Assembly (NCBI GenBank): GCA_037783545.1
Contig: JBBELK010000096.1
Span: 496,001-560,000 of the forward strand
DNA: 64,000 nt
Direction of reading: 5' to 3'
DNA from: Henricia sp. BOLD:AAB3569
Taxonomy: Eukaryota > Echinodermata > Asteroidea > Spinulosida > Echinasteridae
Shown here: positions 16,068 through 57,928 of the stretch, piece after piece
Layout: every line of letters starts with the position of its first letter
Numbering within the stretch: the first letter of the stretch is position 1
Position numbers and translations under genes: made by a program
Notes under the pieces: model-generated
The model's input: the letters and a program-made list of their open reading frames with translations, nothing else
Database searches by the model: none
What the model was told of the DNA's origin: nothing

Positions 16068-17066
16068 TTACACAATGCCATGGCACAACAAGCTTTCTTT
16101 GAAACACTTTGAAGAGGGGCGCTTGCTGGCATCCTGCTTCCAACATTGCTTCAGAAGATCTAAGAATTTCTCTCCAACCGTGACATCAGCAGGAATCTTT
16201 AGATTAACATCTCCTTCCAGGACACGGCGTCTGAGCTGATGGATGTTTAGCCCATAAAACGGCATCTCTTGACAAACAACCTCCCAAGCAACCAATGACA
16301 TGGAGTAGACGTCGGCCTTGCACATAGCTGTCACATTGAGCTCTTCACCCGATAAAACTTCTGGAGCCGAGTATTTTGGTGTTCCTACACCCTGGACAAC
16401 CTTCGCAGAGGACTGAGATGTTTCTGCTTCACTCTTCATCATGCTGAGACCAAAATCAGATATCTTTGCAACCACCGTACCATCCTCCATGTTTAAGAGA
16501 ATATTGGTAGATTTGATGTCACAATGAGCCACTGATTTATCATGCAAGTACCCCAAACCTTCTGCCATGTGTAGGATGATCTGAAACTGTTGCTCACTGG
16601 AAAATGCAAATTCTTCCACATGCAATACCTCATATAGGCTCTTCTGCATGTACTCCATGACTATAGCCAGGTTTGGAGTAACAATGCAGGCACCGAGGAA
16701 CTTAACAACATTGAAATGATCCAAACGATTCAGAACTCCGACCTCCTCTTCGAACTGCTTCAAGCGACGCTGAGACACACGCTGCACACGGAGTTTCTTC
16801 ACTGCACAGACTTGACCCTTCCATTTGGCAAAGAACACATCGCCGAAGCCCCCGTGACCAATTTTAACTCCAAGCTCAATCTCGTCAAATCTAATGACAG
16901 GCCCTTCGTACTTCAACTTGCTGATCGATGTCTGAGGCTGCTTGCCTTGTGTCATATTAGACTCCTGCCATGTCAACACCTGGTTCATGCGCCTGATCAA
17001 ACTCAAAACGGTTTCTTGCTCTTCGGGAGGGATGCCAGGAGAAAAATCACCCATTATGTCTGCCTC
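16068..17066 (-). CDS. Protein kinase (TKL-like), catalytic exon
   Basis: Encodes a complete protein-kinase domain that would phosphorylate Ser/Thr (or Tyr) residues. Numbering from the internal methionine at 17054: glycine loop GHGGFG 66-71, ATP lysine in CAVKK 84-87, helix-C glutamate about 103, HCDIKSTN 177-184 (HRD written as HCD, keeping the catalytic Asp), DFGLS 200-204, APE-type SAPEVL 229-234, and ADVYSMSLVAWEV 248-258 of helix F. Style and order resemble tyrosine-kinase-like kinases (Raf/RIPK/plant-STYK group). The catalytic-loop Arg is Cys, so activation-loop control may be altered. A strong acceptor (pyrimidine tract then CCTCTAG) precedes 17066 and continues the frame as EADIMGDFSPG, joining the upstream exon in phase 0. 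Stop at 16068-16070. Family name not assigned. Confidence 0.85.
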   Translation of the reverse strand, partial: EADIMGDFSPGIPPEEQETVLSLIRRMNQVLTWQESNMTQGKQPQTSISKLKYEGPVIRFDEIELGVKIGHGGFGDVFFAKWKGQVCAVKKLRVQRVSQRRLKQFEEEVGVLNRLDHFNVVKFLGACIVTPNLAIVMEYMQKSLYEVLHVEEFAFSSEQQFQIILHMAEGLGYLHDKSVAHCDIKSTNILLNMEDGTVVAKISDFGLSMMKSEAETSQSSAKVVQGVGTPKYSAPEVLSGEELNVTAMCKADVYSMSLVAWEVVCQEMPFYGLNIHQLRRRVLEGDVNLKIPADVTVGEKFLDLLKQCWKQDASKRPSSKCFKESLLCHGIV

Positions 17067-20384: not shown

Positions 20385-20743
20385 GGAGTTGTAGCCAGGA
20401 GATGTAGGTACTGCCGGAAGTAACTTACGCGCAGTGAATATTACGCGTGGCCGGCTGAACGGTGTGGGGCAGCAAGGCCGAGCGGTGTGGCGTGTTGAAT
20501 CCAAGATCGTGGTAAATCATCGGCGCGGCCTTGCAAGGCACCTTATAATTGCCACGAATTGCCTCTCTCCACCCAGGAGAAAATGAGTACATGTGAGAGT
20601 AATGAAAGCTGATGTGTTTGTTTAGTTCCTGTGCGCATAAGTTGCACGGGACTGCATACTCCCGGGGAGTTGAGAAGGACTAAGATTAGGCGCATTGAGA
20701 GTTCCGTCGGTTCTGAAATGCACTATATAGGAACTGCCTATTT
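20385..20743. other. No feature recognised
   Basis: Relatively GC-rich stretch (GGCCGGCTGAACGGTGTGGG area) between the foldback element and the Helitron-like array. No gene seen. Confidence 0.4.
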
Positions 20744-20800
20744 AGGTGATCGGGCCAACAGCCCGACCACCTATTACTCTCGTACGATTTCTTTATTTTT
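20744..20800 (+). mobile_element. beta1, 5' end
   Basis: Palindrome AGGTGATCGGGCC... GCCCGACCACCT (one mismatch) then CTCTCGTACGATTTCTTTAT. The element is interrupted here by alpha1; its body resumes at 32595. Confidence 0.8.
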
Positions 20801-20849
20801 GGCTTTTTCGCTTTGCGGCGAAAAAGCCTTTGTTTTCGTTTTGATTTTT
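20801..20849 (+). mobile_element. alpha1, 5' end
   Basis: Palindrome GGCTTTTTCG... CGAAAAAGCC then TTTGTTTTCGTTTTGATTTT, cut by alpha2. The remainder begins at 28920 with the T-tract and CCGTTTATTTC that should follow. Confidence 0.8.
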
Positions 20850-20883
20850 GGCTTTTTCGCTTTGCGGCGAAAAAGCCTTTGTT
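20850..20883 (+). mobile_element. alpha2, 5' end
   Basis: Second copy of the 28-bp palindrome plus TTTGTT, cut by alpha3. The expected continuation TTTTCGTTTTGATTTT is found at 24606. Confidence 0.8.
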
Positions 20884-23800
20884 GGCTTTTTCGCTTTGCG
20901 GCGAAAAAGCCTTTGTTTTCGTTTTGATTTTTTTTTTTCCGTTTATTTCTTCTTCTTCTTCTTCTGATTTGTTTCCCATAGACAAAGCGCATAGGCGTTG
21001 TCGGCGCTTTTTCAGGTTGTTCCCAAACATTGATCTTAACCAAACTTGGTCACATCAAAGACATAGTATAAGAGGTGTGCACCCAAGAATGGCTTCATTG
21101 TGACGTCATCCGTTACGTCATTATAACACTTTAAAAATGCCTAAAAAGCGGAAAATTGCCGAAATATGCACTTTTTAAAATGGTTCCCTTGCCCAAACCA
21201 CATGACCCATGGTTTTCATATTTGGCAAATATTTAGATCAGATCATGAGCTTCAATGTTCTTAGTGTAGGCATTTTCATCTGACCCTTCCTTCCTGGGTC
21301 AATCGAAGGTCAAAGTTCAGCCAATTCAAAAATCACATTTGTTGTATTTGTTTGTACTTATGAAGCAATATTAGCTATTCAACAATGCTTGATTTTCATA
21401 AAACTAGGTACAGGCATGGGCCCCATCACAAACGTCCACCACCATGTAAAACGTCACCATGACGTCAAGGATTACGTAATTATAATAATTTTAAAATGGA
21501 ACAAAAGTGGATTTTTATCATGAAAAGTACCAAAATATGCATTTCGTAAAACGCTTCCCTGTATGAACCCACATGACCCAGGGTATTCATATTTTGCATA
21601 CATATATATCAGATCATGGGCTACAATGTTCTTTGTGTAGGCATTTTCATCTGACCCTTCCTTCCTGGGTCAATCGAAGGTCAAAGTTCAGCCATTTCAA
21701 AATTCACATTTGTTGTGTTTTTGTGTACTTATGAAGCAATTTTAGCTATTAAAGTACGCTTGATTTTCATAAAACTAGGTACAGGCATGGGCATCATCAC
21801 AAACTTCCACCACCATGTACAACATCACCATGACGTCAATGATTACGTAATTATAATTATTTAAAATTGGCCAAAAAGTGGATTTTCGTCATAAAAATGA
21901 GCCAAAAATGCATTTCGTAAAATGTTTCCTTCTATAAAACCACATGACCCAGGGTCTACATATTTAGCAGACATTATAGATCAGATCCTGGGCTATAATT
22001 TGCTTTGTGTAGTCATTTTCATCTGACCCTTCCTTCCTGGGTCAATTGAAGGCCAAAGTTCAGGCAAGTCAACATTTCCGTATATACAGGTTGGATTTTA
22101 AAAAAACGAAACCGAGATATTATTGCTAATTGTAACTAAAGTAGGGCGCGTATGAATGAACAGGAGATATCATCTGTTAGGGTTGAATCTCCTCTTAAAA
22201 ATGACACCATGATCATGTCATTATGTTTTTGGTTGACTGAGCAGTGACCAGTGTTATGCCAGGAGCCTAGTTTTAGATTTGACCGTTCTCAATGCGAGCA
22301 AACTTCGCAGAAATTAATTTTTACCGTAGCTGTCTATTACGTGTGCCCTGTGTGACACGGCGCCGACCGAGACAGTGACACGCTATTTGTTTGCGTGGAA
22401 GCAGTCTTTTAACTGTGTCTACCACGGACGTGTAATTCAACAGAAGATGGTTTAACAAAAGGACATGTGAGTAGGATACAATCTTTTATGTTATTTCAGT
22501 CTTATTTAAGAGAGTCCACTCTCTACACGAAAGTAGTTGTATGTTATTGAGGGAATGTCGTAGTTTTGCCGTGAAGCATTCATTCCAATGTTTGTTTTCT
22601 TCCTTTTAGGTTTAGTAAGGTGCAAAGCTTAATATAGGCCTGATATCATTAAGTTATTGTCAGGATTTTATTGAACCATCTTCAACAAATCTAATTACGA
22701 AATTGTTCCTTCTTGGCCAAACTCTTTTCAATCTTAACAAATTATGTGCTCTGATTTCTGCCTTTGATGACTAATATATATGTATATCAGTTTTTCGAGT
22801 AAACATCGGATTTCCATCCCAAATTTGAACAAAACAAACTAACAATGAACAGTTTAGAATTCGCAAAGGGAAATAAAACTTGCCTCTCAACTTAGTTTTT
22901 AGGATAAACTTTTTAAATATTTAATTTATAACTGCATGTGACATTATGACAAATAGTACTAATTTTACAGTAACTTAGGCCTAATCGATGTTTTTGAATA
23001 TGCAAAAACTGAAAATTGCCATATTTTCAAATCTAAACATATTTTCTGAATCGATGAAGGCTTCTGCACTATTTCCATTAAATGTACATGTTATTTTGTT
23101 TTATATGAAATTTGGCTCAATACTCTCTTAGTATAAATCCTGAACCTACATGTTATGATACTCCTCAAGGAGCTAATTAAGTAATCAAAAGTTGTTACCT
23201 GCACCATGACTTGGTATCTCACAGTTCATCAAACACCTTGAAGTGGTAGATCTGTATAGCAGTAATTCCCCCACTCAGGCAAACTGACACAACTCAAAAA
23301 CTGTTCATCATCAGTTATAAGATTAAATGAACATACAATTTAATGTTTTCCATATTCAAACATTCTAACAAATCAGCCGATTCACCTATGATCGTGATTC
23401 CTGCGCCATATACGGTCATTTACAAAGGTATTTAACTGATGATCTCATAATGACGTCATCACGTCATTAAAGGTGATAAAAATATTATAAAAATGAAATA
23501 TTAAAAAATGCGACCTACAACCTTGATTCCTTCCCATATACGATCACTATACAAAGGTCGTTAACTTTTGGCTTTTCCGTTTATTTCGTCTTTTCATTTT
23601 CCCCCCATTGACATAACGCATGGGCGTTGTCGGCACTTTTTGAGGTTGTTCCCAAACTTGAGGTTGTTCCTAAATGCACAGGCGCGTCAGCAATGCGCGC
23701 CCGCCAAATGTGTGCCACGCAATACGCAGCTCCATAGCAAATGCATGGAGCTGCGTGTTTCCAGCACGAATTTGGCGGGCGCGCATTGCTGACGAGCCTG

Positions 23801-24605
23801 TGCATTTAAACAAACATGGTCACATCAAAGACATAGTTGAAGAGGTGTGCACCCAACAACGGCGTCATCATGACGTCATCAGGTGTAAGTTTAAAGGGGC
23901 ATGAAATTTAGTGTTTCCATATTAACAAATTCATAAAAAATCATCCGTTTGACCTACGGTCTTGATTCTTTCGGCATATACGATCATTAATAAAGGTCTT
24001 TCAGATGCCCACATGCCTTGACATTTGACCTCATTCCCTATTGGTCAAACAGACTTTGCCTTGCCATTTGAAACTGGTAAGAGGTATTTGGATGGGGTCA
24101 AAGGTGTTTGAGTTCGACTAGGGTGGGGTATCCAAAAATATCGCCATGACCTGTGACCTTGCTCACTTTCGGTAGAAACCGGAAGTGCATTTAAATGAAC
24201 CTATTTTGTAAAAGTGGTGAATGCTGCCGAGATGCGGTTGGTAGTGTCAGTGTCTAAGGTAAATAGGGTTTCCAAAAATGTAAGTTTCTACGTCATTCCA
24301 TAAAAGGGCGCCCTCTAGCGTCAAAATTAAAAAGTCTTAAAATGACCCTTTCATAGCAGTGTTTGCGCAAATTAGCCCAATAGTGCTGCTTATAGAGTAA
24401 GTCCACCACCAAACATGTCTGTGTGGTTAAAACATTGATGACGTCATCAATCCTTTTAAAGGTAACACATTAAAGGTAAACTTTTTAAAAGTTAAATTGT
24501 TGATATGCTAACATCTAATTTTGCAAGGTAAGCATGCTCATTTTTTAAAGTAAAAAAAATGTGAAAAAGCCCTACGCTCTGTTCATAGAACAGACGTAGC
24601 TCTAG
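20884..24605 (+). mobile_element. alpha3, complete innermost element
   Basis: Uninterrupted ~3.72-kb alpha copy from palindrome to CTCTAG. After a T-tract and (TTC)n it has about three ~371-bp internal repeats (starts near 21010, 21388, 21759) each with TGACCCTTCCTTCCTGGGTC and AGGTCAAAGTTCA. An A+T-rich middle follows, then a nested MITE at 23671-23810, a CTTTCGGTAGAAACCGGAAG pair near 24170, and the 3' hairpin. Nearly identical to the alpha1 body. Confidence 0.85.
23671..23810. mobile_element. GCTCGTCA-family MITE in alpha3
   Basis: Palindromic ~140 bp: AAATGCACAGGCGCGTCAGC at the left, GCTGACGAGCCTGTGCATTT at the right. The same insertion is at the same place in alpha1 (31660), so it predates the split of those two copies. 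Confidence 0.85.
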
Positions 24606-25766
24606 TTTTCGTTTTGATTTTTTTTTTTCCGTTTATTTCTTCTTCTTCTTCTGATTTTTTTCCCATAGACAAAGCGCATAGGCGTTGTCGGCGCTTTTTC
24701 AGGTTGTTCCCAAACATTGATCTTAACCAAACTTGGCCACATCAAAGACATAGTATAAGAGGTGTGCACCCAAGAATGGCTTCATTGTGACGTCATCCGT
24801 TACGTCATTATAACACTTTAAAAATGCCTAAAAAGCGGAAAATTGCCGAAATATGCACTTTTTAAAATGGTTCCCTTGCCAAAACCACATGACCCAGGGT
24901 TTTCATATTTGGCAAACATTTAGATCAGATCATGAGCTTTAATGTTCTTAGTGTAGGCATTTCCATCTGACCCTTCCTTCCTGGGTCAATCGAAGGTCAA
25001 AGTTCAGCCAATTCAAAAATCATATTTTTTGTATTTGTTTGTATTTATGAAGCAATATTAGCTATTCAACCATGCTTGATTTTCATAAAACTAGGTACAG
25101 GCATGGGCCCCATCACAAACGTCCACCACCATGTAGAACGTCACCATGACGTCAAGGATTACGTAATTATAATAATTTTAAAATGGCACAAAAGTGGATT
25201 TTTATCATGAAAATTACCAAAATATGCATTTCGTAAAACGCTTCCCTGTATGAAACCACATGACCCAGGGTCTTAATATTTAGCAGACATTATAGATCAG
25301 ATCATGGGCTATAATGTTCTTTGTGTAGGCATTTTCATCTGACCCTTCCTTCCTGGGTCAATCGAAGGTCAAAGTTCAGCCATTTCAAAATTCACATTTG
25401 TTGTGTTTTTGTGTACTTATGAAGCAATTTTAGCTATTAAAGTACGCTTGATCTTCATAAAACTAGGTACAGGCATGGGCCCCATCACAAACTTCCACCA
25501 CCATGTAAAACATCACCATGACGTCAATCATTACGTAATTATAATTATTAAAATATGGCAAAAAAGTGGATTTTCGTCATAAAAATTTGCCAAAAATGCA
25601 TTTCGTAAAATGTTTCCCTCTATAAAACCACATGACCCAGGGTCTTCATAATTAGCAGACATTATACATCAGATCCTGCGCTACAATTTGCTTTGTGTAG
25701 TAATTTTCATCTGACCCTTCCTTCCTGGGTCAATTGAAGGCCAAACGTCAGCCAATTCAACATTTC

Positions 25767-26038
25767 CAGAGGGACATGGATATATTCACATCATTGCCGT
25801 TATTCCACCGAACCCGCGGACCGGTTTCATCGTAGGAAATGGAGAACAACATGCTACAATTTTCTCACAACTCTTCACGACAGTTTATAAAAGGCCCATT
25901 TTATCACTTGAACACGAAACATTTGCAAGAATTCCAGGAACTACAGCATTACATAACTAAAGCATAATGTTGATAAACTGCCTTGTAGAAATTTCAGCCA
26001 CATAGATGCAGTAATACTTCAGAAAAACTGTTAAAATC
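25767..26038 (+). other. Insert with 63-codon open frame (possible captured exon)
   Basis: Absent from alpha1, alpha3 and alpha4, where CAACATTTCC joins directly to the TATACAGG region. From 25769 to the stop at 25958 one frame is open: EGHGYIHIIAVIPPNPRTGF, IVGNGEQHATIFSQLF, TTVYKRPILSLEHETF, ARIPGTTALHN. Composition is protein-like and there is no ATG at its start. TTTCCAG before AGGGACATGG could be a splice acceptor, and ~80 bp of non-coding sequence follow the stop. It could be a terminal exon captured by the element, or a relic of an autonomous ancestor. The family is not recognised. Confidence 0.4.
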
Positions 26039-28015
26039 CATATACAGGGTAGATTTTAAAAAACGAAACCGAGATATTATTGCTAATTGTAACTAAAGTA
26101 GGGCGCGTATGAATGAACGGGAGATATCATCTGTTAGGGTTGAATCTCCTCTTCAAAATGACACCATGATCATGTCATTATGTTTTCGGTTGACTGAGCA
26201 GTGACCAGTGTTATGCCAGGGGCCTAGTTTTAGATTTGACCGTTCTCAATGCGAGCAAACGTCGCACAAATAAATCTTTACCGTAGATGTCTATTCCGTG
26301 TGCCCTGTGTGACACGGCGCCGACCGAGACAGTGACACGGTAACTTTGAACTGTGTCTACCACGGACGTGTAATTCTACAGAAGATGGTTTAACAAAAGG
26401 ACAGTAAGTAGGATACAATATTTTATGTTATTTCAGTCTTATTTAAGAGAGTCCACTCTCTAAAAGAAAGTAATTGTATTTTATTGAGGGAATGTCGTAG
26501 TTTTGCCGTGAAGCATTCATTCCAATGTTTGTTTTCTTCCTTTTAGGTTTAGTAAGGTGCAAAGCTTAATATAGGCCTGATATCATTAAGTCATTGTCGG
26601 GATTTTATTGAACCATCTTCAACATTAATAAGAAACTCTTTTCAATCTTAACAAATTATGTGCTCTGATTTCTGCCTTTGATGACAAATATATGTAGGCC
26701 TATATCAGTTTTTCGAGTAAACATCGGATTTCCATCCCAAATGTCAAAAAAACAAACTAAAAATTAACAATCTTTTTTCGCTGACTACATCGTGAAACAG
26801 CAGATGAAAATTACCAAAATATGCACTTTTTAAAATGTTTCCCTCTATAAAACCACATGATCCAGGGTCTTCATATTTAGCAGACATTATAGATCAGATC
26901 ATGGGCTATAATTTGATTGGTGGAGTCATTTTCATATGATTCCTCCGTCCTGGGTCAATTAAAGGCCAAAGTTCAGCCAAGTCAAAATTTGCGTAAAACA
27001 ATGCATAAGCCACCAAATGTCGACTTCCGTACGTGACCGACAGAGGGCGCCATTCATAAATTACGGTGTTGCACAGACCTATAAACCTATAGACCAACGA
27101 TCGTGCATTGAAAATCGTGACTTGGAAAAGTATGGGCAAATGACGACACAATGGGCTGCATGAGCTAACCGTGCGGGTTTAAAGCGTCAACGCTATTCCA
27201 AAACGCGCGTACGCCGTGTGTATTGTACGCGTTCCTATGAAGTATGGGCGATGGACGCACGAAGCTCACAAAGCGGACTGACAGCGCGCACGAGGATTGA
27301 AATTGTCATGCTTCCAAACTACTTCTAAAAAAATAAGTATACATTTGTACATATCACCAAGTAACAATATGGTAACATTTCCTGAAGTGTGGTGAAGTTT
27401 GACGTCAGTTACCATGGTAATTGGGTCTAAACATTCGCTGCTAATCTGAATCGTCCATCGGTAAAGCGCAGGGAAACAGTTCACTGGTTGTAATGTAGAT
27501 CCAGTAACCATGGCAACACATAAAGGGTGGCGTTTTCACTTTAGTAGTCTATTCGCTGGCAGAGTGTGACGTCAATTTGCGCGCGTTAATTCAATAACAA
27601 TTCATTAACAATTAATATATTACACATGCCATTTTAATATACATGTAGGCCTAACATTTAAAAGCAAATTCAAACCTTGTCTGCATCACCCAGCTGAGCT
27701 CCGTATTGTACTTTAAATCTGCTGTTGTAATCCCGTAACTATATAGCCATTCATTATCGCTTTACGGTTACCGTAACTATAGCCACTGCGTAGTAGTTCT
27801 GAATCCGTTGCATCACCAAATACACACGCAGCGGCACGCATAGTGCACGCGACGTCAACTCAAATTCTCGAAACAATGACGAATCGTACCCGACGATTAA
27901 CGATAACGTCCCGACGTGCATTCGGGTAACTTCGGGAACCTTTGCAAAAAGGAGCAATTCCTCCTGTTTCAATATGGCGGGCAAACGTGTACATCTTACA
28001 CGTGTACATCATACG

Positions 28016-28347
28016 GAGCGCGTGTGGTCTAGTGGGTATGAAGCGGGACTCCCAATCAGAGGTTGGGGGTTCGAAGCCCACTCCGACCAACGTATCTGTG
28101 TCCCTGGGCAAGGCACTTAACCCCAGTCGCCTCGTAAACCCAAGCGATATATGGGAAGCTGTTAAGGGGATTGCCACAATCTAACTGCTGATAGTGTTGT
28201 GCGCCTGACCAGCAGCCAGCTAGTTGAAGCGAAATGGTTCTAGTGATTCCCTGCATGGCGGCAATAATAATGGTAACAGCGCCTTGAGCACCCTGCAGGG
28301 TGGATATGTGCGCTATTTAAAATCTCATTATTATTATGATTGTTATT
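28016..28347 (+). mobile_element. tRNA-derived SINE in alpha2
   Basis: The head resembles a tRNA with box A (TGGTCTAGTGGGTATG) and box B (GGTTCGAAGCCC), as used by RNA polymerase III. A body with TGTGTCCCTGGGCAAGGCAC follows, then a tail GCGCTATTTAAAATCTCATT ending in an (ATT)n run. A second copy at 36420 sits at the same place in alpha4. Confidence 0.8.
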
Positions 28348-28919
28348 CAGATGCCCACATGCTTTGACCTTTGACCTGATTCCCGATTGGTCAAACAGAC
28401 TCTGCCTTGTAGTTTGAACGTGTTCAGAGCTAATCTACTGTGTTATGGTTCAACTAGGGTAGAGTATTCAAAAATATGGTGTTGACCTTTGACCTTGCTC
28501 ACTTCCGGTAGAAACCGGAAGTGCATTTAAATAAACCTATTTTGTAAAAGTGGTCAACGATGCCGAGATCGGGTTGGCAGTGTTAGTGTCTAAGGTTAAT
28601 GCTTTCCAAAAAAATGCGCCCTCTAGCGGCGAAATTAACAAATCTTAAAATGACCCTTTCATGTTTAAGCAAATTAGCCCATCGTGACGCGTGGTGCTTA
28701 TAGAGTACGTCGACCACCAAACATGTCTGTGTTGTTAAAACATTGACTACGTCATCAGTCCTTCAATTTAAAAGTAACGCATTGAAGGTTAATATTTTTA
28801 AAGTTAAATAGTTGATATGTTAACAACATCTAATTTTACAAGGTAAGCATGCTCATTTTTCAAGTTAAAAAAATGTGAAAAAGCCCTACGCTCTGTTCAT
28901 AGAACAGACGTAGCTCTAG

Positions 28920-31900
28920 TTTTTTTTCCGTTTATTTCTTCTTCTTCTTCTTCTGATTTGTTTCCCATAGACAAAGCGCATAGGCGTTGTCGGCGCTTTT
29001 TCAGGTTGTTCCCAAACATTGATCTTAACCAAACTTGGTCACATCAAAGACATAGTATAAGAGGTGTGCACCCAAGAATGGCTTCATTGTGACGTCATCC
29101 GTTACGTCATTATAACACTTTAAAAATGCCTAAAAAGCGGAAAATTGCCGAAATATGCACTTTTTAAAATGGTTCCCTTGCCCAAACCACATGACCCATG
29201 GTTTTCATATTTGGCAAATATTTAGATCAGATCATGAGCTTCAATGTTCTTAGTGTAGGCATTTTCATCTGACCCTTCCTTCCTGGGTCAATCGAAGGTC
29301 AAAGTTCAGCCAATTCAAAAATCACATTTGTTGTATTTGTTTGTACTTATGAAGCAATATTAGCTATTCAACCATGCTTGATTTTCATAAAACTAGGTAC
29401 AGGCATGGGCCCCATCACAAACGTCCACCACCATGTAAAACGTCACCATGACGTCAAGGATTACGTAATTATAATAATTTTAAAATGGCACAAAAGTGGA
29501 TTTTTATCATGAAAAGTACCAAAATATGCATTTCGTAAAACGCTTCCCTGTATGAACCCACATGACCCAGGGTATTCATATTTTGCATACATATATATCA
29601 GATCATGGGCTACAATGTTCTTTGTGTAGGCATTTTCATCTGACCCTTCCTTCCTGGGTCAATCGAAGGTCAAAGTTCAGCCATTTCAAAATTCACATTT
29701 GTTGTGTTTTTGTGTACTTATGAAGCAATTTTAGCTATTAAAGTACGCTTGATTTTCATAAAACTAGGTACAGGCATGGGCATCATCACAAACTTCCACC
29801 ACCATGTACAACATCACCATGACGTCAATGATTACGTAATTATAATTATTTAAAATTGGCCAAAAAGTGAATTTTCGTCATAAAAATGAGCCAAAAATGC
29901 ATTTCGTAAAATGTTTCCTTCTATAAAACCACATGACCCAGGGTCTACATATTTAGCAGACATTATAGATCAGATCCTGGGCTATAATTTGCTTTGTGTA
30001 GTCATTTTCATCTGACCCTTCCTTCCTGGGTCAATTGAAGGCCAAAGTTCAGGCAAGTCAACATTTCCGTATATACAGGTTGGATTTTAAAAAAACGAAA
30101 CCGAGATATTATTGCTAATTGTAACTAAAGTAGGGCGCGTATGAATGAACAGGAGATATCATCTGTTAGGGTTGAATCTCCTCTTAAAAATGACACCATG
30201 ATCATGTCATTATGTTTTTGGTTGACTGAGCAGTGACCAGTGTTATGCCAGGAGCCTAGTTTTAGATTTGACCGTTCTCAATGCGAGCAAACTTCGCAGA
30301 AATTAATTTTTACAGTAGCTGTCTATTACGTGTGCCCTGTGTGACACGGCGCCGACCGAGACAGTGACACGCTATTTGTTTGCGTGGAAGCAGTCTTTTA
30401 ACTGTGTCTACCACGGACGTGTAATTCAACAGAAGATGGTTTAACAAAAGGACATGTGAGTAGGATACAATCTTTTATGTTATTTCAGTCTTATTTAAGA
30501 GAGTCCACTCTCTACACGAAAGTAGTTGTATGTTATTGAGGGAATGTCGTAGTTTTGCCGTGAAGCATTCATTCCAATGTTTGTTTTCTTCCTTTTAGGT
30601 TTAGTAAGGTGCAAAGCTTAATATAGGCCTGATATCATTAAGTTATTGTCAGGATTTTATTGAACCATCTTCAACAAATCTAATTACGAAATTGTTCCTT
30701 CTTGGCCAAACTCTTTTCAATCTTAACAAATTATGTGCTCTGATTTCTGCCTTTGATGACTAATATATATGTATATCAGTTTTTCGAGTAAACATCGGAT
30801 TTCCATCCCAAATTTGAACAAAACAAACTAACAATGAACAGTTTAGAATTCGCAAAGGGAAATAAAACTTGCCTCTCAACTTAGTTTTTAGGATAAACTT
30901 TTTAAATATTTAATTTATAACTGCATGTGACATTATGACAAATAGTACTAATTTTACAGTAACTTAGGCCTAATCGATGTTTTTGAATATGCAAAAACTG
31001 AAAATTGCCATATTTTCAAATCTAAACATATTTTCTGAATCGATGAAGGCTTCTGCACTATTTCAATTAAATGTACATGTTATTTTGTTTTATATGAAAT
31101 TTGGCTCAATACTCTCTTAGTATAAATCCTGAACCTACATGTTATGATACTCCTCAAGGAGCTAATTAAGTAATCAAAAGTTGTTACCTGCACCATGACT
31201 TGGTATCTCACAGTTCATCAAACACCTTGAAGTGGTAGATCTGTATAGCAGTAATTCCCCCACTCAGGCAAACTGACACAACTCAAAAACTGTTCATCAT
31301 CAGTTATAAGATTAAATGAACATACAATTTAATGTTTTCCATATTCAAACATTCTAACAAATCAGCCGATTCACCTATGATCGTGATTCCTGCGCCATAT
31401 ACGGTCATTTACAAAGGTATTTAACTGATGATCTCATAATGACGTCATCACGTCATTAAAGGTGATAAAAATATTATAAAAATGAAATATTAAAAAATGC
31501 GACCTACAACCTTGATTCCTTCCCATATACGATCACTATACAAAGGTCGTTAACTTTTGGCTTTTCCGTTTATTTCGTCTTTTGATTTTCCCCCCATTGA
31601 CATAACGCATGGGCGTTGTCGGCACTTTTTGAGGTTGTTCCCAAACTTGAGGTTGTTCCTAAATGCACAGGCGCGTCAGCAATGCGCGCCCGCCAAATGT
31701 GTGCCACGCAATACGCAGCTCCATAGCAAATGCATGGAGCTGCGTGTTTCCAGCACGAATTTGGCGGGCGCGCATTGCTGACGAGCCTGTGCATTTAAAC
31801 AAACATGGTCACATCAAAGACATAGTTGAAGAGGTGTGCACCCAACAACGGCGTCATCATGACGTCATCAGGTGTAAGTTTAAAGGGGCATGAAATTTAG

Positions 31901-32594
31901 TGTTTCCATATTAACAAATTCATAAAAAATCATCCGTTTGACCTACGGTCTTGATTCTTTCGGCATATACGATCATTAATAAAGGTCTTTCAGATGCCCA
32001 CATGCCTTGACATTTGACCTCATTCCCTATTGGTCAAACAGACTTTGCCTTGCCATTTGAAACTGGTAAGAGGTATTTGGATGGGGTCAAAGGTGTTTGA
32101 GTTCGACTAGGGTGGGGTATCCAAAAATATCGCCATGACCTGTGACCTTGCTCACTTTCGGTAGAAACCGGAAGTGCATTTAAATGAACCTATTTTGTAA
32201 AAGTGGTGAATGCTGCCGAGATGCGGTTGGTAGTGTCAGTGTCTAAGGTAAATAGGGTTTCCAAAAATGTAAGTTTCTACGTCATTCCATAAAAGGGCGC
32301 CCTCTAGCGTCAAAATTAAAAAGTCTTAAAATGACCCTTTCATAGCAGTGTTTGCGCAAATTAGCCCAATAGTGCTGCTTATAGAGTAAGTCCACCACCA
32401 AACATGTCTGTGTGGTTAAAACATTGATGACGTCATCAATCCTTTTAAAGGTAACACATTAAAGGTAAACTTTTTAAAAGTTAAATTGTTGATATGCTAA
32501 CATCTAATTTTGCAAGGTAAGCATGCTCATTTTTTAAAGTAAAAAAAATGTGAAAAAGCCCTACGCTCTGTTCATAGAACAGACGTAGCTCTAG
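28920..32594 (+). mobile_element. alpha1, body and 3' end
   Basis: Collinear with alpha3 at a constant offset of 7989 bp from about 20940 to the 3' end, with only about six substitutions noticed by eye and no indel. Ends with the alpha hairpin and CTCTAG at 32589-32594. Confidence 0.85.
31660..31799. mobile_element. GCTCGTCA-family MITE in alpha1
   Basis: Same insertion as 23671-23810 in alpha3, shifted by 7989 bp. Confidence 0.85.
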
Positions 32595-33449
32595 TTTTTT
32601 TTTTTTTTTTTTTTCTTTTTCCACTCAAACGTTTCCAGAGGTTTTCTTCAAAACGGTTCAAGCTATCAACTTAAAACTTGGTAGGAACATCAACCCCAAT
32701 GTGAAGATGTGCATACAAGTGTGACGTCATTGTGACGTCATTAGGTATCAAATTACAAACCAAAAATGACCAAAATATGCATGTTTTAAAATGCTTCCGT
32801 CTGGAAAACCACGTGACCCATGATCTACGTATTTGACAGGCTTATATATCAGATCATGACCTACAATTTTCTTCGTGTGGGCATTTTCATCTGACCCTTC
32901 CTTCTGGGGTCAATCTGAGGTCAAAGTTCAACGAAAACGAAAATCTCAATTTTTGCACTTATTGAGCAACAATGCCCATCAAACCAAGCTGAATCTTTAA
33001 GAAACTAAGTACAGGCATAGGTCCTATAGCAGACTTTCACCAGCGTGTTTAATATTATGATGGCATCAAGCGTGACGTCATCGTGACGTCATCAAGTATC
33101 AAATTACACCTCCCAAAAAACCAAAATATGCATATTTTAAAATGCTTCCGTCTCGAAAACCACGTGACCCAGGATCTTCGTATTTGGCAGGTTTATAGAT
33201 GACATTCTGTGCTACAACTTTCTTTGTGTGGGCATTTTCATCTGACCCTTCCTTCTGGGGTCAATTGGAGGTCAAAGTTCAACTTACCAGTAACAATGCC
33301 CATCAAACCAAGCTGAATCGTTAGTAAATTAGATACAGACATAGGCCCTACGGCAGACTTTCACCAGCATGTATAGTATCATGATGGCATCAAGTGTGAC
33401 GTAATAATGACGTCATCAGGTGTCAAATTACAAAAATTCAAAGGTTATT
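32595..33449 (+). mobile_element. beta1, body, truncated
   Basis: Starts with a long T-tract and CTTTTTCCACTCAAACGTTT like the other beta bodies. It has two ~340-bp repeats with GTGACGTCA clusters and GAGGTCAAAGTTCAAC. It stops at AATTCAAAGGTTATT, where the beta2 palindrome begins; its 3' portion is not found after 40663. Confidence 0.75.
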
Positions 33450-33509
33450 AGGTGATCGGGCCAACAGCCCGATCACCTATTGCTCTCGTACGATTTCTTT
33501 GTCTTTTTT
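33450..33509 (+). mobile_element. beta2, 5' end
   Basis: Perfect palindrome AGGTGATCGGGC / GCCCGATCACCT plus CTCTCGTACGATTTCTTTGT, cut by beta3. The body resumes at 38953. Confidence 0.8.
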
Positions 33510-33568
33510 AGGTGATCGGGCCAACAGCCCGATCACCTATTGCTCTCGTACGATTTCTTTATTTATTT
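33510..33568 (+). mobile_element. beta3, 5' end
   Basis: Second perfect copy of the beta palindrome and following sequence, cut in its T-rich tract by alpha4. The body resumes at 37257. Confidence 0.8.
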
Positions 33569-36500
33569 GGCTTTTTCGTTTAGGACGAAAAAGCCTTTGT
33601 TTTCGTTTTGATTTGTTTTTTTTTTTTTCCGTTTATTTCTTCTTCTTCTTCTTCTGATTTTTTTCCCATAGACAAAGCGCATGGGCGTTGTCGGCGCTTT
33701 TTCAGGTTGTTCCCAAACATTGATCTTAACCAAACTTGGTGACATCAAAGACATAGTATAAGAGGTGTGCACCCAAGAATGGCTTCATTGTGACGTCATC
33801 AGTTACGTCATTATAACACTTTAAAAATGCCTAAAAAGCGGAAAATTGCCCAAACCACATGACCCAGGGTTTTCATATTTGGCAAACATTTAGATCAGAT
33901 CATGAGCTTCAATGTTCTTAGTGTAGGCATTTTCATCTGACCCTTCCTTCCTGGGTCAATCGAAGGTCAAAGTTCAGCCAATTCAAAAATCACATTTTTT
34001 GTATTTGTTTGTACTTATGAAGCAATATTAGCTATTCAACCATGCTTGATTTTCATAAAACTAGGTACAGGCGTGGGCCCCATCACAAACGTCCACCACC
34101 ATGTAGAACGTCTCCATGACGTCAAGGATTACGTAATTATAATAATTTTAAAATGGCACAAAAGTGGATTTTTATCATGAAAATTACCAAAATATGCATT
34201 TCGTAAAACGCTTCCCTGTATGAACCCACATGACCCAGGGTCTTCATATTTTGCATACATATATATCAGATCATGGGCTACAATGTTCTTTGTGTAGGCA
34301 TTTTCATCTGACCCTTCCTTCCTGGGTCAATCGAAGGTCAAAGTTCAGCCATTTCAAAATTCACATTTGTTGTGTTTTTGTGTACTTATGAACCAATTTT
34401 AGCTATTAAAGTACGCTTGATTTTCATAAAACTAGGTACAGGCATGGGCCCCATAACAAACTTCCACCACCATGTTGAACATCACCATGACGTCAATGAT
34501 TACGTAATTATAATTATTTAAAAATGGCAAATTAAAATGTTTTCTTCTATAAAACCACATGACCCAGGGTCTTCATAAATAGCATACATTATAGATCAGA
34601 TCCTGTGCTACAATTTGCTTTGTGTACTCATTTTCATCTGACCCTTCCTTCCTGGGTCAATTGAAGGCCAAAGTTTAGCCAAGTCAACATTTCCGTATAT
34701 ACAGGGTGGATTTAAAAAAATGAAACCGAGATATTATTGCTAATTGTAACTAAAGTAGGGCGCGTATGAATGAACGGGAGATATCATCTGTTAGGGTTGA
34801 ATCTCCTCTTCAAAATGACACCATGATCATGTCATTATGTTTTTGGTTGACTGAGCAGTGACCAGTGTTATGCAAGGGGCCTAGTTTTAGATTTGACCGT
34901 TCTCAATGCGAGCAAACGTCGTACAAATAAATCTTTACCGTGGCTGTCTATTCCGTGTGCCCTGTGTGACACGGCGTCGACCGAGACGGTGACACGGTAA
35001 CTTTTAACTGTGTCTACCACGGACGTGTAATTCTACAGAAGATGGTTTAACAAAAGGACATGTGAGTAGGATACAATCTTTTATGTTATTTCAGTCTTAT
35101 TTAAGAGAGTCCACTCTCTACAAGAAAGTAATTGTATGTTATTGAGGGAATGTCGTAGTTTTGCCGTGAAGCATTCATTCCAATGTTTGTTTTCTTCCTT
35201 TTAGGTTTAGTAAGGTGCAAAGCTTAATATAGGCCTGATATCATTAAGTCATTGTCTGGATTTTATTGAACCATCTTCAACAAATATAATTAAGAAAATG
35301 TTCCTTCTTGGCCAAATTCTTTTCAATCTTAACAAATTATGTGCTCTGATTTCTGCCTTTGATGACTAATATATGTAGGCCTATATCAGTTTTTCGAGTA
35401 AACATCGGATTTCCATCCCAAATGTGAACAAAACAAACTAAAAATTAACAATATTTTGTCGCTGACTACATCGTGAGACAGCAGATGAAAATTATCAAAA
35501 TATGCACTTTTAAAATGTTTCCCTCTATAAAACCACATAATCCAAGGTCTTCATATTTAGCAGACATTATATATCAGATCATGGGCTACAATTTGCTTGG
35601 TGGAGTCATTTTCATATGATTCCTCCGTCCTGGGTCAATTAAAGGCCAAAGTTCAGCCAAGTCAAAATTTGCGTAAAACAATGCATAAGCCACCAAATGT
35701 TGACTTCTGTACGTGACCGGCAGAGAGCGTCATTCATAAATTACGGTGATGCACAGACCTATAAACCTATAGACCAACGATCGTGCATTGAAAATCGTGA
35801 CTTGGAAAAGTATGGGCAAATGACGACACAATGGGCTGCATGAGCTAACAGCGCGGGTTTAAAGCGCTCACGGCTATTCCGAAACGCGCATACGCCGTGT
35901 GTATTGTACGCGTTCCTATGAAGTATGGGCGATGGACGCACGACGCTCGCAAAGCGGACTGACAGCGCGCACGAGGATTAATTGTCATGCTTTTAAACTA
36001 CTTCTAAAAATAAAAATAAAATTCATAAACAATTAATATATTACACATGCCATTTTAATATATATGTAGGCCTAGCATCTAAAAGCAAATTCAAACCTTG
36101 TCTGCATCACCCAGCTGAGCTCCATATTGTACTTTTAATCTGCTGTTGTAATCCCGTAACTATATAGCCATTCATTATCGCTTTACGGTTACCGTAACTA
36201 TAGCCACTGCGTAGTAGTTCTGAATCCGTTGCATCACCAAATACACACGCAGCGGCACGCATAGTGCACGCGACGTCAACTCAAATTCTCGAAACAATGA
36301 CGAATCATACCCGACGATTAACGATAACGTCCGGACGTGCATTCGGGTAACTTCGGGAACATTTGCAAAAAGGAGCAATTCCTCCTGTTTCAATGTGGCG
36401 GGCAAACGTGTACATCTTACGCGTGTTGTCTAGTGGATATGAGGCGGGACTCCCAATCAGAGGTTGGAGGTTCGAACCCCACTTCGACCAACGTGTCTGT

Positions 36501-37256
36501 GTCCCTGGGCAAGGCACTTAATCCCAGTTGCCTCGTAAACCCAAGCGATATATGGGAAGCTGTTAAGGGGAATGCCACAATCTAACTGCTGATAGTGTTG
36601 TGCGCCTGAAGCGAAATGGTTCTGGTGATTCCCTGATGGCAGCGGTAATAATGGTAACAGCGCCTTGAGCACCCTGCTGGGTGGATATGTGCGCTTTATA
36701 AATCTCATCACTATTATTCAGATGCCCACATGCTTTGACCTTTGACTGTTTGACCTATTGGTCAAACAGACTCTGCTTGTAGTTTGAACGTGTTCAGAGC
36801 TAGTCTACTGTTTTATGGTTCAACTAGGGTAGGGTATTCAAAACTATGGTGTTGACCTTTGACCTTGCTCTACCGGAAGTGCATTTAAATAAACCTATTT
36901 TGTAAAAGTGGTCAACGATGCCGAGATCGGGTTGGCAGTGTTGGTGTCTAAGGTAAATGCTTTCCAAAAAAATGCGCCCTCTAGCGGCGAAATTAACAAA
37001 TCTTAAAATTACCCTTTCATAGCAATGTTTGCGCAAATTAGCCCATAGTGGTGCTTATAGAGTACGTCGACCACCAAACATGTCTGCAGTTAAAACATTG
37101 ATTACGTCATCAGTCCTTTAAAGGTAACGCATTGAAGGTTAATATTTTTTTAAGTTAAATAGTTGATATGTTAACAAGATCTAATTTTACAAGGTAAGCA
37201 TGCAAAAAAATGTGAAAAAGCCCTACGATCTGTTCATAGAACAGACGTAGCTCTAG
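33569..37256 (+). mobile_element. alpha4, complete element
   Basis: Starts GGCTTTTTCGTTTAGGACGA and ends with the alpha hairpin and CTCTAG. Internal repeats as in alpha3; the right half matches alpha2, including the SINE, but lacks the 272-bp insert. Clearly more diverged than the alpha1/alpha3 pair. Confidence 0.8.
36420..36718 (+). mobile_element. tRNA-derived SINE in alpha4
   Basis: TTGTCTAGTGGATATGAGGC (box A region) and GGTTCGAACCCC (box B), with the same body and tail as 28016-28347 and small deletions. Confidence 0.8.
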
Positions 37257-38952
37257 TTTTTTTTTTTTTTTCTTTTTCCACTCAAACGTTTCCAGAGGTT
37301 TTCTTCAAAACGGTTCAAGCTATCAACTTAAAACTTGGTAGGAACATCAACCCCAATGTGAAGATGTGCATACAAGTGTGACGTCATTGTGACGTCATTA
37401 GGTATCAAATTACAAACCAAAAATGACCAAAATATGCAAGTTTTAAAATGCTTCCGTCTGGAAAACCACGTGACCCATGATCTTCGTATTTGACAGGCCT
37501 ATATATCAGATCATGGCCTACGATTTTCTTCGTGTGGGCATTTTCATCTGACCCTTTCTTCTGGGGTCAATCTGAGGTCAAAGTTCAACGAAAACGAAAA
37601 TCTCAATTTTTGCACTTATTGAGCAACAATGCCCATCAAACCAAGCTGAATCTTTAAGTAACTAAGTACAGGCATAGGTCCTATGGCAGACTTTCACCAG
37701 CGTGTATAATATTATGATGGCATCAAGCGTGACGTCATCGTGACGTCATCAAGTATCAAATTACACCCCCCAAAAAAACAAAATATGCATATTTTAAAAT
37801 ACTTCCGTCTTGAAAACCACGTGACCCAGGATCTTCGTATTTGGCAGGTTTACAGATGACATTCTGTGCTACAATTTTCTTTGTGTGGGCATTTTCATCT
37901 GACCCTTCCTTCTGGGGTCAATTGGAGGTCAAAGTTCAACGAAACTGAGAATCTCAGTTTTTACACTTACCAGCAACAATGCCTATCAAACCAAGCTGAA
38001 TCGTTAGTAAATTAGATACAGACATAGGCCCTACGGCAGACTTTCACCAGAATGTATAGTATCACGATGGCATCAAGTGTGACGTAATCATGACGTCATC
38101 AGGTGTCAAATTACAAAAATTCAAAGGTTATTATTTCCAAAATTCATATCTCAAGAACCGTAATAGATACTTGAACAATTCTTTCACAACATGATAAGTC
38201 TAAATGAACTGAACAAATCATACGATGTCATGACCCCTGTGTGACGCCTACTTCCGGTCCAAACCGGAAGTTGTTCGAAAATGTACACTTGTTTAGCACT
38301 TTGAATGCAAATAGAGCCAAAGTGGTAGGGAATTTGACCATAGTTCTACGGAACGAAATGTTTTCACACATGTGGACCTTTTGACTATACCATTGGTGAC
38401 GTCATTACATGGACGGTGGTTACGTAATGTACGTCAAATTACGCAAATTTGGAGCTGAGATGTTTTAAAATGCTGTATCTTGAAAACTACAACAGATATT
38501 GGTATGATTCCTTCGCCACATTTAAGAACTTGATGTTCAACATATTGTTCAACAATTTGTGCACAAAATTGTGACGTCATGATGTCGTCACAGGTGTCAC
38601 ATTACAAGATTTCAAAGGTTATTATTTCAACAATTCATATCTCAAAACGGTGCAAGCTATCAACCCCCAGCTATGGCGGATATGCAGGGAGGAGATATTA
38701 GTTACCGGATTAGTGTATACAGCAGCCGATTTCACGAAACTTTACGCAATTGCGCAAGTCCACTTACGCCATAAGCTATTGCGCAAGTAATGGCGTAAGT
38801 GGACTTGCGCAATTGCGTAAAGTTTCGTGAAATCGGCTGCTGAACTTCCATTTTTGCCATTCCATAGGTGATAACAACGTCTGAAATTCATCACAAAATG
38901 TTCATTTAACCCGATCACCTGGCGTTTGTAACAACAAACGTCATACCTCTAG
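37257..38952 (+). mobile_element. beta3, body and 3' end
   Basis: T-tract, CTTTTTCCACTCAAACGTTT, two internal repeats, the ACTTCCGGTCCAAACCGGAA palindrome near 38251, a nested palindromic MITE at 38720-38842, then CCCGATCACCT, the hairpin and CTCTAG. Non-coding. Confidence 0.8.
38720..38842. mobile_element. CAGCAGCCGATTTCACG MITE in beta3
   Basis: Nearly perfect palindrome of ~123 bp with ~57-bp arms (CAGCAGCCGATTTCACGAAA... TTTCGTGAAATCGGCTGCTG). Also in beta2 at 40431 and as a fragment at 59327. Confidence 0.9.
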
Positions 38953-40663
38953 TTTTTTTTTCTTTGTCTTTTTCCACTCAAACGTTTCCAGAGCTTTTCT
39001 TCAAAACGGTTCAAGCTATCAACTTGAAACTTGGTAGGAACATCAACCCCAATGTGAAGGTGTGCATACAAGTGTGACGTCACTGTGACGTCATCGGGTA
39101 TCAAATTACAACCCAAAAATGACGAAAATATGCATGTTTTAAAATGCTTCCGTCTGGAAAACCACGTTACCCATGATCTTCGTATTTGACAGGCTTATAT
39201 ATCAGATCATGGCCTACAATTTTCTTCGTGTGGGCATTTTCATCTGACCCTTCCTTCTGGGGTCAATCTGAGGTCAAAGTTCAACGAAAACGAAAATCTC
39301 AATTTTTGCACTTATTGAGCAACAATGCCCATCAAACCAAGCTAAATCTTTAAGAAACTAAGTACAGGCATAGGTCCTATGGCAGACTTTCACCAGCGTG
39401 TATAATATTATGATGGCATCAAGCGTGACGTCATCGTGACGTCATCAAGTATCAAATTACACCTCCCAAAAAACCAAAATATGCATATTTTAAAATGCTT
39501 CCGTCTCCAAAACCACGTGACCCAGGATCTTCGTATTTGGCAGGTTTATAGATGACATTCTGTTCTACAACTTTCTTTGTGTGGGCATTGTCATCTGACC
39601 CTTCTTTCTGGGGTCAATTGGAGGTCAAAGTTCAACGAAAGCAGAAATCTCAGTTTTTACACTTACCAGTAACAATGCCCATCAAACCAAGTTGAATCGT
39701 TAGTAAATTAGATACAGACATAGGCCCTACGGCAGACTTTCACCAGCATGTATAGTATCATGATGGCATCAAGTGTGACGTAATAATGACGTCATCAGGT
39801 GTCAAATTACGAAAATTCAAAGGTTATTCTTTTCAAAATTCATATCTCAAGAACCGTAATAGATACTTGAACAATTCTTTCACAACATGATAAGTCTAAA
39901 TGAAATGAACAAATCATACGATGGCATGACCCCTGTGTGACGCCTACTTCCGGTCCAAACCGGAAGTTGTTCGAAAATGTGAATTTTTTTAGCATTTTGA
40001 ATGCAAAAAGATTCAAAGTGGTAGTGAATTTGACCATATTTCTACGGAACGAAATGTTTCCACACATGTGGACCTTTTGACTATACCATTGGTGACGTCA
40101 TTACATGGACGGTGGTTACGTAATGTGGTGTCAAATTACGCAAAATTTGGAGCTGAATTGTTTTAAAATGCTGTATCTTGAAAACTACAACAGATATTGG
40201 TATGATTCCTTCGCCACATTTAAGAACTTGATGTTCAACATATTGTTCAACATATTGTTCAACAATTTGTGCACAAAATTGTGACGTCATGATGTCGTCA
40301 CAGGTGTCCCATTACAAGATTTCAAAGGTTATTATTTCAACAATTCATATCTCAAAACGGTGCAAGCTATCAACCCCCCAGCTATGGCGGATATGCAGGG
40401 AGGAGATATTAGTTACCGGATTAGTGTATACAGCAGCCGGTTTCACGAAACTTTACGCAATTGCGCAAGTCCACTTACGCCATAAGTTATTGCGCAAGTA
40501 ATGGCGTAAGTGGACCTGCGCAATTGCGTAAAGTTTCGTGAAATCGGCTGCTGAACTTCCATTTTTGCCATTCCACAGGTGATAACAACGTCTGAAATTC
40601 ATCACAAAATGTTCATTTAGCCCGATCACCTGGCGTTTGTAACAACAAACGTCATACCTCTAG
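38953..40663 (+). mobile_element. beta2, body and 3' end
   Basis: Same architecture as beta3 with modest divergence, including the ACTTCCGGTCCAAACCGGAA palindrome near 39949 and the MITE at 40431-40553. Ends CTCTAG at 40658-40663, after which unrelated DNA (TTTTATTATTATT) begins: this is the right edge of the array. Confidence 0.8.
40431..40553. mobile_element. CAGCAGCCGATTTCACG MITE in beta2
   Basis: Orthologous position to the copy in beta3, so the MITE was present before these two beta copies separated. Arms ~57 bp with few mismatches. Confidence 0.9.
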
Positions 40664-54441: not shown

Positions 54442-54776
54442 GAATAACTAAACCGCGCTAATTACCATATTCCATGCCACGAGAAAAACTGTCGATGTGA
54501 TTGAAACAAACTTCGGCCAATTGTAATATGAACGACCAGAAGGACCCACATTTATCAACGAAACAACGGTTGGGGCAATAGTGCGCCGAAAAGTGACGCA
54601 TTGCCATGGTAATTGGCTCCAAACACCATGGCTGCCGGATAAAACACTATTTCAAAAGCGCAGGGAAACTGTTGAGTGATTTTTAAAAAGTGGAGCCAAT
54701 GCCTAGAAAACTAAAAATAGGGTGACGTTTTCACTTCGACCGTTTATTGTGAACAGGTGAATGAACCCGACTTCTC

Positions 54777-55190
54777 GAACCGTCGTATTTACATATCAAT
54801 AAAACACGACGGTTCAGGCAATTGTAGTGACTGAATAGACTGACAGTTAGAACCGTCGCATTTCCATATCAATAAAACACGACGGTTCAGGCAATTGTAG
54901 TGACTGAATAGACTGACAGTTAGAACCGTCGCATTTCCATATCAATAAAACACGACGGTTCAGGCAATTGTAGTGACTGAATAGCCGGACCGTTAGAACC
55001 GTCGCATTTCCATATCAATAAAACACGACGGTTCAGGCAATTGTAGTGACTAAATAGCCTGGCGGTTCGAACCGTGCATTTACATATCAATAAAACAGGA
55101 CAGGTGGGCAATTGTAATGACTGAATTGCCTGACGATTTGAACCGTGCATTTACATATCAACGAAACAAGGCGGTTTGGGCAATAGACAG
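54777..55190. repeat. 73-bp tandem satellite with internal hairpin
   Basis: Unit starts at 54777, 54850, 54923, 54996, 55069 and 55140 (73, 73, 73, 73, 71 bp). Most units contain GAACCGTCG ... CGACGGTTC, a 9-bp inverted repeat around ~20 bases; the last units lose this symmetry. Confidence 0.9.
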
Positions 55191-55330
55191 CCGAAGTGTG
55201 ACGTGTCCATGGCAATTGGCTCTAAACATCATGACCGTCGGAAAAAGTACCATTGAAAAAGCACGGGGACACGGCTCAGTGATTTTAGTGTATTGCCTAG
55301 GCAACTTAACAAAAGATGACGTATTCATTT
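55191..55330. repeat. Fragment of the CCATGGCAATTGGCT repeat
   Basis: AGTGTGACGTGTCCATGGCA then ATTGGCTCTAAAC, a degraded relative of 53816-54020. Confidence 0.5.
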
Positions 55331-56775: not shown

Positions 56776-57639
56776 GCCCTATCGCGCGATCTTTCGCCGA
56801 CCTCTACACGCCGACCGATGCCTATAAATCGCACACGCCGCCCGTCCTCCGCTTTAATTGTGACTTAGGTATTATGCAATGCAAATATGCAAACAAACCA
56901 AAACCGACTATGGACAATTTTGTTCACGTATATTTCACTTTAGGCGCCGATTACGTAGTTTTGATATTTGGGGGACCTGCCGTGGCAGGTCACAAATAGG
57001 GCGGGCGGGGTGGGGTGCGTTAAAAAATGTGATATGTAATGTATGCGGCTCTTTTAATACACGTACATATGGTTTAATACGCGTGGATATTTAATATAGG
57101 CGGCTATTGATTAGGAGAAGGCTCAGTTTAAATTTGGATTTTTCCAGTCCAAAGTCCAAAACGGCATGCTTATTTGTTCCCCCAAATAACAGAGATCTAT
57201 GTTCTTCCAAATACAGTCAAACTTGTATATATGCATGTAGTAGTGACCATCCAAGGAACCGACAAAAAGTGGCCGGAATAAACAGTGGCCCTTGTTTAGC
57301 GGGAAACATACAAACAACATACCACAACGCAAGTCTGTAGTAGAAAAACAGCTTAATTAACGTGGAGTGCAACAAAATGGTTCCATTTCCCACAGTAGCT
57401 TGGTTCATTGAGGTAATTTACTGAATGTAGCCAGATTATCCATGTTTAACTTATTGTATTTGTACCGTCCTATAGTGCCCTGGCCACTGGCCGCGTTAGA
57501 CAAGCCGGGCCCCAATTAATTTCAACCTTCTATTCTTCCATTTGATTATGCACAAACTGATTTGAAACCGAACAAAATGTGGCCACTTTGCAGGAAGCCT
57601 CCTTATAAATGTGGCCTTAATACCGTTCGACGTTCAATA
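56776..57639. other. No feature recognised
   Basis: One 97-codon frame (56706-56999) overlaps the dispersed repeat and shows no domain. The rest is featureless. Confidence 0.4.
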
Positions 57640-57915: not shown

Positions 57916-57928
57916 ATATCAATTGTTT

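Follow-up and report, generated by a model that had tools for sequence, protein, structure and literature searches.

Can a run of related transposons that looks like a head-to-tail tandem array be built by the elements inserting into one another? This question is raised by a 64,000-nt window of the sea star Henricia sp. BOLD:AAB3569 (G000:C96:496001-560000), which we analyzed against 740,731,340 bases on 2104 contigs of the same genome. Positions 20744-40663 of the window are filled by seven elements with Helitron2/Helentron-type ends, four of type alpha and three of the related type beta. Very probably, this nest was built by serial self-insertion of mostly non-autonomous, Helitron2/Helentron-type (HINE-like) elements into their own 5′ zones. 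An earlier note on this DNA had likewise argued for serial self-insertion and against a tandem array. The order of the elements, their complementary joints, a footprint of two Ts, the recurrence of the pattern throughout the genome and two further sets of loci (C745 and C32/C52) all bear it out.

Mirrored order and complementary joints

In the left half of the nest, the 5′ hairpins of one beta and three alpha elements are stacked, and the types then recur in reverse, beta-alpha-alpha-alpha being followed by alpha-alpha-alpha-beta. The right half repeats this arrangement with three hairpins (beta-beta-alpha, then alpha-beta-beta; Table 1). Such mirrored order in both halves is what serial insertion yields. 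The stacked palindromes and the last-in-first-out order of the bodies, both described in the earlier note, proved exact to the base, with each body resuming where its outer element had been cut. A simple head-to-tail array, formed by unequal crossing-over or from rolling-circle multimers, is a highly improbable source of this layout. Constant-period arrays of the family do exist on C1 (840357-847601, mostly 1347 bp), C3 (72216-75058, 1421 bp) and C227 (714440-717167, 1350 bp), but these are secondary tandem amplification, not nests. In the window, by contrast, the joints lead from CTCTAG into a T-tract with no hairpin between bodies, the hairpins crowd together on the left, and the element types are mixed and mirror-ordered.

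The joint halves complement each other beyond mere adjacency. Alpha2 is cut at GCCTTTGTT^ (the caret marks the cut) and resumes as TTTTCGTTTTGAT, and alpha1 is cut at GATTTTT^ (GAT5^) and resumes as TTTTTTTTCCG (T8CCG). Compared with the uninterrupted alpha3, which reads GCCTTTGTTTTCGTTTTGAT11CCG, both joints carry two surplus Ts: the alpha2 pieces contribute TT+TTTT where alpha3 has GTTTTC, and the alpha1 pieces T5+T8 where it has GAT11CCG. The joint CCGTTTATT^TTTCTTC on C745 likewise has two. Slippage in a T-run could explain the alpha1 joint alone, but not easily the one at GTTTTC. Joints in the window and on C745 thus show only two surplus Ts and no long target-site duplication, as is typical of Helitron2/Helentron insertion; at such joints, a TT duplication and a terminal TT of the element are indistinguishable. 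Serial self-insertion accounts for the element order, the base-exact joints and the two-T footprint together.

In this reading, each element opens with a 5′ terminal hairpin and a short T-rich zone ahead of its body; behind the body, the 5′ inverted repeat recurs, followed by the 3′ hairpin and a terminal CTCTAG. Integration would occur in one orientation after approximately T(T/A)(A/T)TT, leaving Ts on both sides. Sites of this kind cluster in the 5′ zone of the element itself (GTCTTTTT^, TTTATT^, GATTTTT^, GCCTTTGTT^), which would make a resident copy a strong target. An insertion would divide the host copy, leaving hairpin and prefix on the left and T-tract and body on the right, while the incoming copy would supply a fresh pad. 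Repetition of this step would then produce nests of the form 5′5′5′-body-body-body, in last-in-first-out order. Rolling-circle integration by a Rep-bearing partner, and recognition of the pad by more than its T content, may be involved.

Table 1. Elements and element parts of the nest, in window coordinates
Feature	Position	Strand
beta1 5′ hairpin and prefix, ending CTTTATTTTT^	20744..20800	+
alpha1 5′ hairpin and prefix, ending CGTTTTGATTTTT^	20801..20849	+
alpha2 5′ hairpin and prefix, ending GCCTTTGTT^	20850..20883	+
alpha3, uninterrupted innermost element, 3722 bp, ending CTCTAG	20884..24605	+
alpha2 body, resuming TTTTCGTTTTGAT, ending CTCTAG	24606..28919	+
alpha1 body, resuming TTTTTTTTCCG, ending CTCTAG; 6 mismatches to alpha3 over 3675 bp	28920..32594	+
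beta1 body, 3′-truncated, ending GGTTATT at the beta2 hairpin	32595..33449	+
beta2 5′ hairpin and prefix, ending GTCTTTTTT^	33450..33509	+
beta3 5′ hairpin and prefix, ending CTTTATTTATTT^	33510..33568	+
alpha4, innermost in the right half and uninterrupted, 3688 bp, ending CTCTAG	33569..37256	+
beta3 body, ending CTCTAG	37257..38952	+
beta2 body, ending CTCTAG	38953..40663	+
beta 3′ hairpin and CTCTAG end, with the 3′ inverted-repeat copy CCCGATCACCT just upstream	38919..38952	+

Related nests elsewhere in the genome

On contig C745, a single host flank is followed by seven stacked hairpins, with an uninterrupted beta element innermost. From the outside in, the cuts are of the types GTCTTTTT, GATTTTT, CCGTTTATT, GATTTTTT, CCGTTTATT and GTCTTTTT. 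The downstream joints are, in order, beta (368676), TTTCTTC-type (366977) and CCG-type (363650 and 360342), which are the types predicted in reverse order, bar one TTTCTTC joint. C32 and C52 are a before/after pair: they are 99.4% identical over 1564 bp that take in the host flank and the prefixes of a beta and an alpha element, but where the alpha element on C52 runs on as TCTTCTTC, CCGTTTATT on C32 is followed by a new 5′ hairpin instead. Together with the C745 nest, this pair supports serial insertion.

The pattern is widespread. Whole-genome pattern counts, which are complete and for which every reversed-pattern control gave zero, returned 1348 exact beta and 264 exact alpha 5′ hairpins. 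Beta-like 5′ hairpins of all kinds number 2338, with 897 stacked pairs 15-45 nt apart. Of 2135 exact beta heads, 794 resume directly after a CTCTAG end (CTCTAGTTTT), as do 97 alpha heads. Among the first 100 matches listed for each type, 14 of 15 multi-hairpin clusters of beta and all 22 of alpha were confined to one strand. We also compared stacks with bodies on C1-C9 (3 of 55 clusters, on C10, were dropped), counting only exact heads and with some rows being constant-period tandem arrays. At least two downstream beta heads were present at 17 of 29 stacks (two or more hairpins) but at only 2 of 23 single hairpins (Fisher p 0.00035), stack depth correlated with body number (Spearman 0.36, p 0.009), and beta heads equalled or outnumbered the hairpins in 16 of the 29 stacks. 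An assembly artefact at the window locus is very improbable: although the near-identical alpha1 and alpha3 could mislead an assembler, the same architecture is seen on numerous contigs that differ in flanks, in element order and in cut sites, and the window contig measures 3.93 Mb.

A query joining the two flanks of the nest yielded no clean empty copy of the site. Copies of the left-flank repeat match up to query positions 251-260, as much as 16 bases beyond the join at 244, which hints weakly at insertion in an ATT-rich tail; from position 254, the right flank matches another repeat. The left flank itself (20534-20755) is part of a dispersed repeat, and several other beta insertions follow ATTATT tails in similar-looking flanks. 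Two further locus pairs were seen. L061 (C19:1133432) and L075 (C68:257479) share the same flank, with one extra hairpin beside it on C68, showing that stack copies can be lost or gained between related loci. L056 and L058 (C10:206512 and C10:780296) share 2933 identical bp on a single contig but in opposite orientations, and represent either an inverted duplication or an assembly duplicate.

Truncated beta1 and probable re-mobilised chimeras

Several observations weigh against serial self-insertion into the 5′ zone as a full account. Beta2 sits inside the beta1 body, after AAAGGTTATT (GGTTATT^), outside any 5′ T-tract. According to the earlier note, every insertion lies in the T-tract immediately internal to the 5′ palindrome before it, which holds for five of the six insertions but fails for this one; similarly, its statement that each element ends in CTCTAG applies to six of the seven but not to beta1, which stops at 33449 and amounts to 912 bp over its two pieces. 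The beta1 3′ half was looked for beyond beta2 without success, the sequence there reading TTTTATTATTATTATTGAGCG from 40664 on. On C745, a pattern search did not reveal the TTTCTTC joint predicted between 363650 and 360342. Furthermore, alpha1 and alpha3 share 99.84% identity with a member of another subfamily (alpha2) between them, whereas among 23 alignments to the other alpha heads in the sample the highest identity was 97.0%; this may be due to gene conversion, local copying or a recent burst. Finally, beta-like hairpins outnumber the counted beta heads in 13 of the 29 C1-C9 stacks, as at C3:682081 with six hairpins and two heads. Local hopping as a general cause was ruled out, since beta2 has 100% matches on C181 and C6 while its nest-mate beta3 is about 95.5% identical.

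The shortage of bodies in these 13 stacks suggests that re-mobilised chimeras probably contribute. Once formed, a nest could transpose as the segment between its outermost 5′ end and whichever 3′ end comes first, spreading several hairpins with one body, a model proposed for the FoHelis in the available text of PMC5148889. That stacks are often inherited in this manner is quite possible, and it would explain why beta1 ends exactly at beta2 and why the 3′ end of beta2 borders an ATT-rich flank. Each chimera has only one 3′ end, however, yet more than a third of the beta heads directly follow a CTCTAG end, and the bodies follow in matching reverse order both in the window and on C745.

The beta2-in-beta1 joint provides a further test of copying. 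It was found exactly at three places, including C69 and C330, with a one-mismatch copy on C79. The beta sequences 5′ of the GGTTATT joint on C69 and C330 differ from the window beta1, which argues against a single copied chimera, and we therefore disfavour one proliferating chimera as the origin of the truncation. Since the joint recurs with different upstream beta sequences, the internal TTATT site appears to have been hit more than once, and repeated hits on this GGTTATT site would fit the recurrence better. On C69, where a beta1 remainder may lie, the body that resumes becomes divergent some 890 bp in. In the window, the loss of the beta1 3′ half may stem either from transposition of a chimera reaching from the 5′ end of beta1 to the 3′ end of beta2, or from collapse between the two adjacent homologous 3′ halves.

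Target choice

From 41 distinct host flanks we derived a target consensus of about T(T/A)(A/T)TT^; 37 of the flanks end in TT, 17 in TTATT, nine in TTTTT and five in TAATT. The elements' own 5′ zones hold 95 of 158 oriented hairpins sampled. This sample is non-random: 20 of the first 80 loci were picked by their match to a query starting with CTCTAG, favouring nested copies, and about four entries are orientation relics. Alpha, beta and a third hairpin type insert into each other's 5′ zones, indicating that the landing pad is common to the subfamilies.

Could these zones simply be long T-runs, any of which would be favoured? Beta-like zones received 62 of the 92 classified own-zone insertions, mostly within T-runs, and HINEs are reported to favour T-rich targets (PMC4067079, available text). 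We nevertheless consider the absence of any self-preference unlikely. In 99,140 bp of host sequence, T-runs of at least 8 nt occur about 0.43 times per kb and those of at least 12 nt 0.081 times per kb (an imprecise figure based on 8 runs), the latter scaling to about 60,000 in the genome. Arithmetically, own zones should then receive <1% of insertions if runs of at least 8 nt are the target and about 4% if runs of at least 12 nt are, against the 897 of 2338 beta-like insertions (38%) located in beta-like zones, roughly ten times the share of own zones among the longer runs. Moreover, host flanks favour TTATT over T5. Four things soften this excess: it is confounded by re-mobilised chimeras, duplicated loci and selection against insertion into host DNA, and the T-run sample is small.

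Tentatively, the 5′ zone may be an evolved self-target, that is, the element's own preferred landing pad beside its 5′ hairpin, perhaps recognised by a hairpin-bound transposase, so that about two in five new insertions would be steered to copies already present. The host would be spared and the pad renewed with each insertion, and growing nests would serve as safe havens and as donors of chimeras. If true, this would be a built-in limit on the damage that a transposon does to its host.

Termini and putative autonomous partners

Four of the seven 5′ ends and three 3′ ends were folded. The 5′ hairpins (at 20744, 20801, 33450 and 33569) gave z scores of -3.95 to -8.75 and the 3′ hairpins of -4.79 to -5.75 relative to dinucleotide shuffles. 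The 5′ terminal hairpin contains the 5′ inverted repeat (arms AGGTGATCGGGC and GGCTTTTTC), and its 3′ copies, GCCCGATCACCT in beta and GAAAAAGCC in alpha, lie upstream of the folding 3′ hairpins, each matching the 5′ arm of its own family; both features are those of Helitron2/Helentron (HLE2) elements. Element starts are AGGTG or GGCTT preceded by TT, unlike the 5′ TC end and the insertion between A and T of canonical Helitron1, although the 3′ CTAG end does agree with Helitron1 CTRR. The earlier note thus placed the elements correctly in the Helitron-like class, which these ends narrow to the Helitron2/Helentron type. Both beta 3′ halves also contain a near-perfect internal palindrome (38720-38842 and 40431-40553), and the fold of 38715-38850 has -72.9 kcal/mol (z -19.9); it may be a captured piece resembling a miniature inverted-repeat transposable element (MITE).

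The Rep domain (PF14214) was matched 150 times genome-wide, often in open frames exceeding 3000 aa. By coordinates only, Rep lies on the strand opposite to alpha joints in eight of eight pairs within 30 kb (using 97 of the 150 matches) and to beta joints in six of six pairs (contigs up to C54). Some Helitron2 elements are known to carry RepHel in reverse orientation (PMC3627910, available text). A 999-aa part of the Rep-bearing frame on C7 encodes an OTU-like cysteine protease (PF02338, E 6.9e-9), a Helentron feature. Successive Rep copies or joints are spaced by about 23-28 kb on C43, C139, C303, C330, C365 and C741, and by 40 kb on C921. This spacing suggests large autonomous elements that are also nested.

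Elsewhere in the window, an open reading frame on the minus strand (930-3023) carries endonuclease and reverse transcriptase domains and resembles a long interspersed nuclear element (LINE), a 328-aa open frame on the minus strand (16068-17054) has a protein kinase domain, and short-period repeat arrays occupy 54553-55286 and 57633-58111.

Significance and comparison with known systems

A rolling-circle transposon can thus build tandem-looking arrays without recombination, and mirror order should be sought in any such array before it is classed as a duplication. Each nest gives a dated order of insertions, and the thousands of hairpins, with cut sites readable to the base, amount to a natural assay of Helitron2 target choice. 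Nests of this kind may explain Helitrons with multiple 5′ ends as well as some satellite-like arrays derived from transposable elements.

Self-insertion, multiple 5′ termini and the chimera model have already been published for Fusarium Helitrons, as the available text of PMC5148889 shows; as far as we searched the literature, the scale of self-insertion, the resolved order and the target consensus are new. According to the same text, the FoHeli Helitron2 elements of Fusarium oxysporum (Chellapan et al. 2016) share with the present family asymmetric terminal inverted repeats, terminal hairpins and multiple 5′ termini ascribed to self-insertion, and some families have a reversed ORF orientation. 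The nests it describes are few: one non-autonomous element inside a putative autonomous one, copies with multiple 5′ ends and a single 3′ end, and, in Metarhizium, one case of three in tandem. Here, in contrast, stacks run into the hundreds, bodies can be paired in order with their 5′ ends, and insertion is into T-rich sites rather than the TNAT of FoHeli1/2. Helentrons and HINE/DINE-1 elements (Thomas et al. 2014, PMC4067079) resemble our elements in their palindromic subterminal inverted repeats, 3′ palindrome, central repeats and T-rich target (two or more Ts on both sides), and in the OTU domain of their autonomous partners, but the available text does not describe a 5′-end landing pad or ordered nests. 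Similarly, Helitron2 as defined by Bao and Jurka (2013, PMC3627910) has the same placement of the asymmetric terminal inverted repeats, the 5′ one within the 5′ hairpin and the 3′ one just upstream of the 3′ hairpin, whereas serial self-insertion is not mentioned in the text available.

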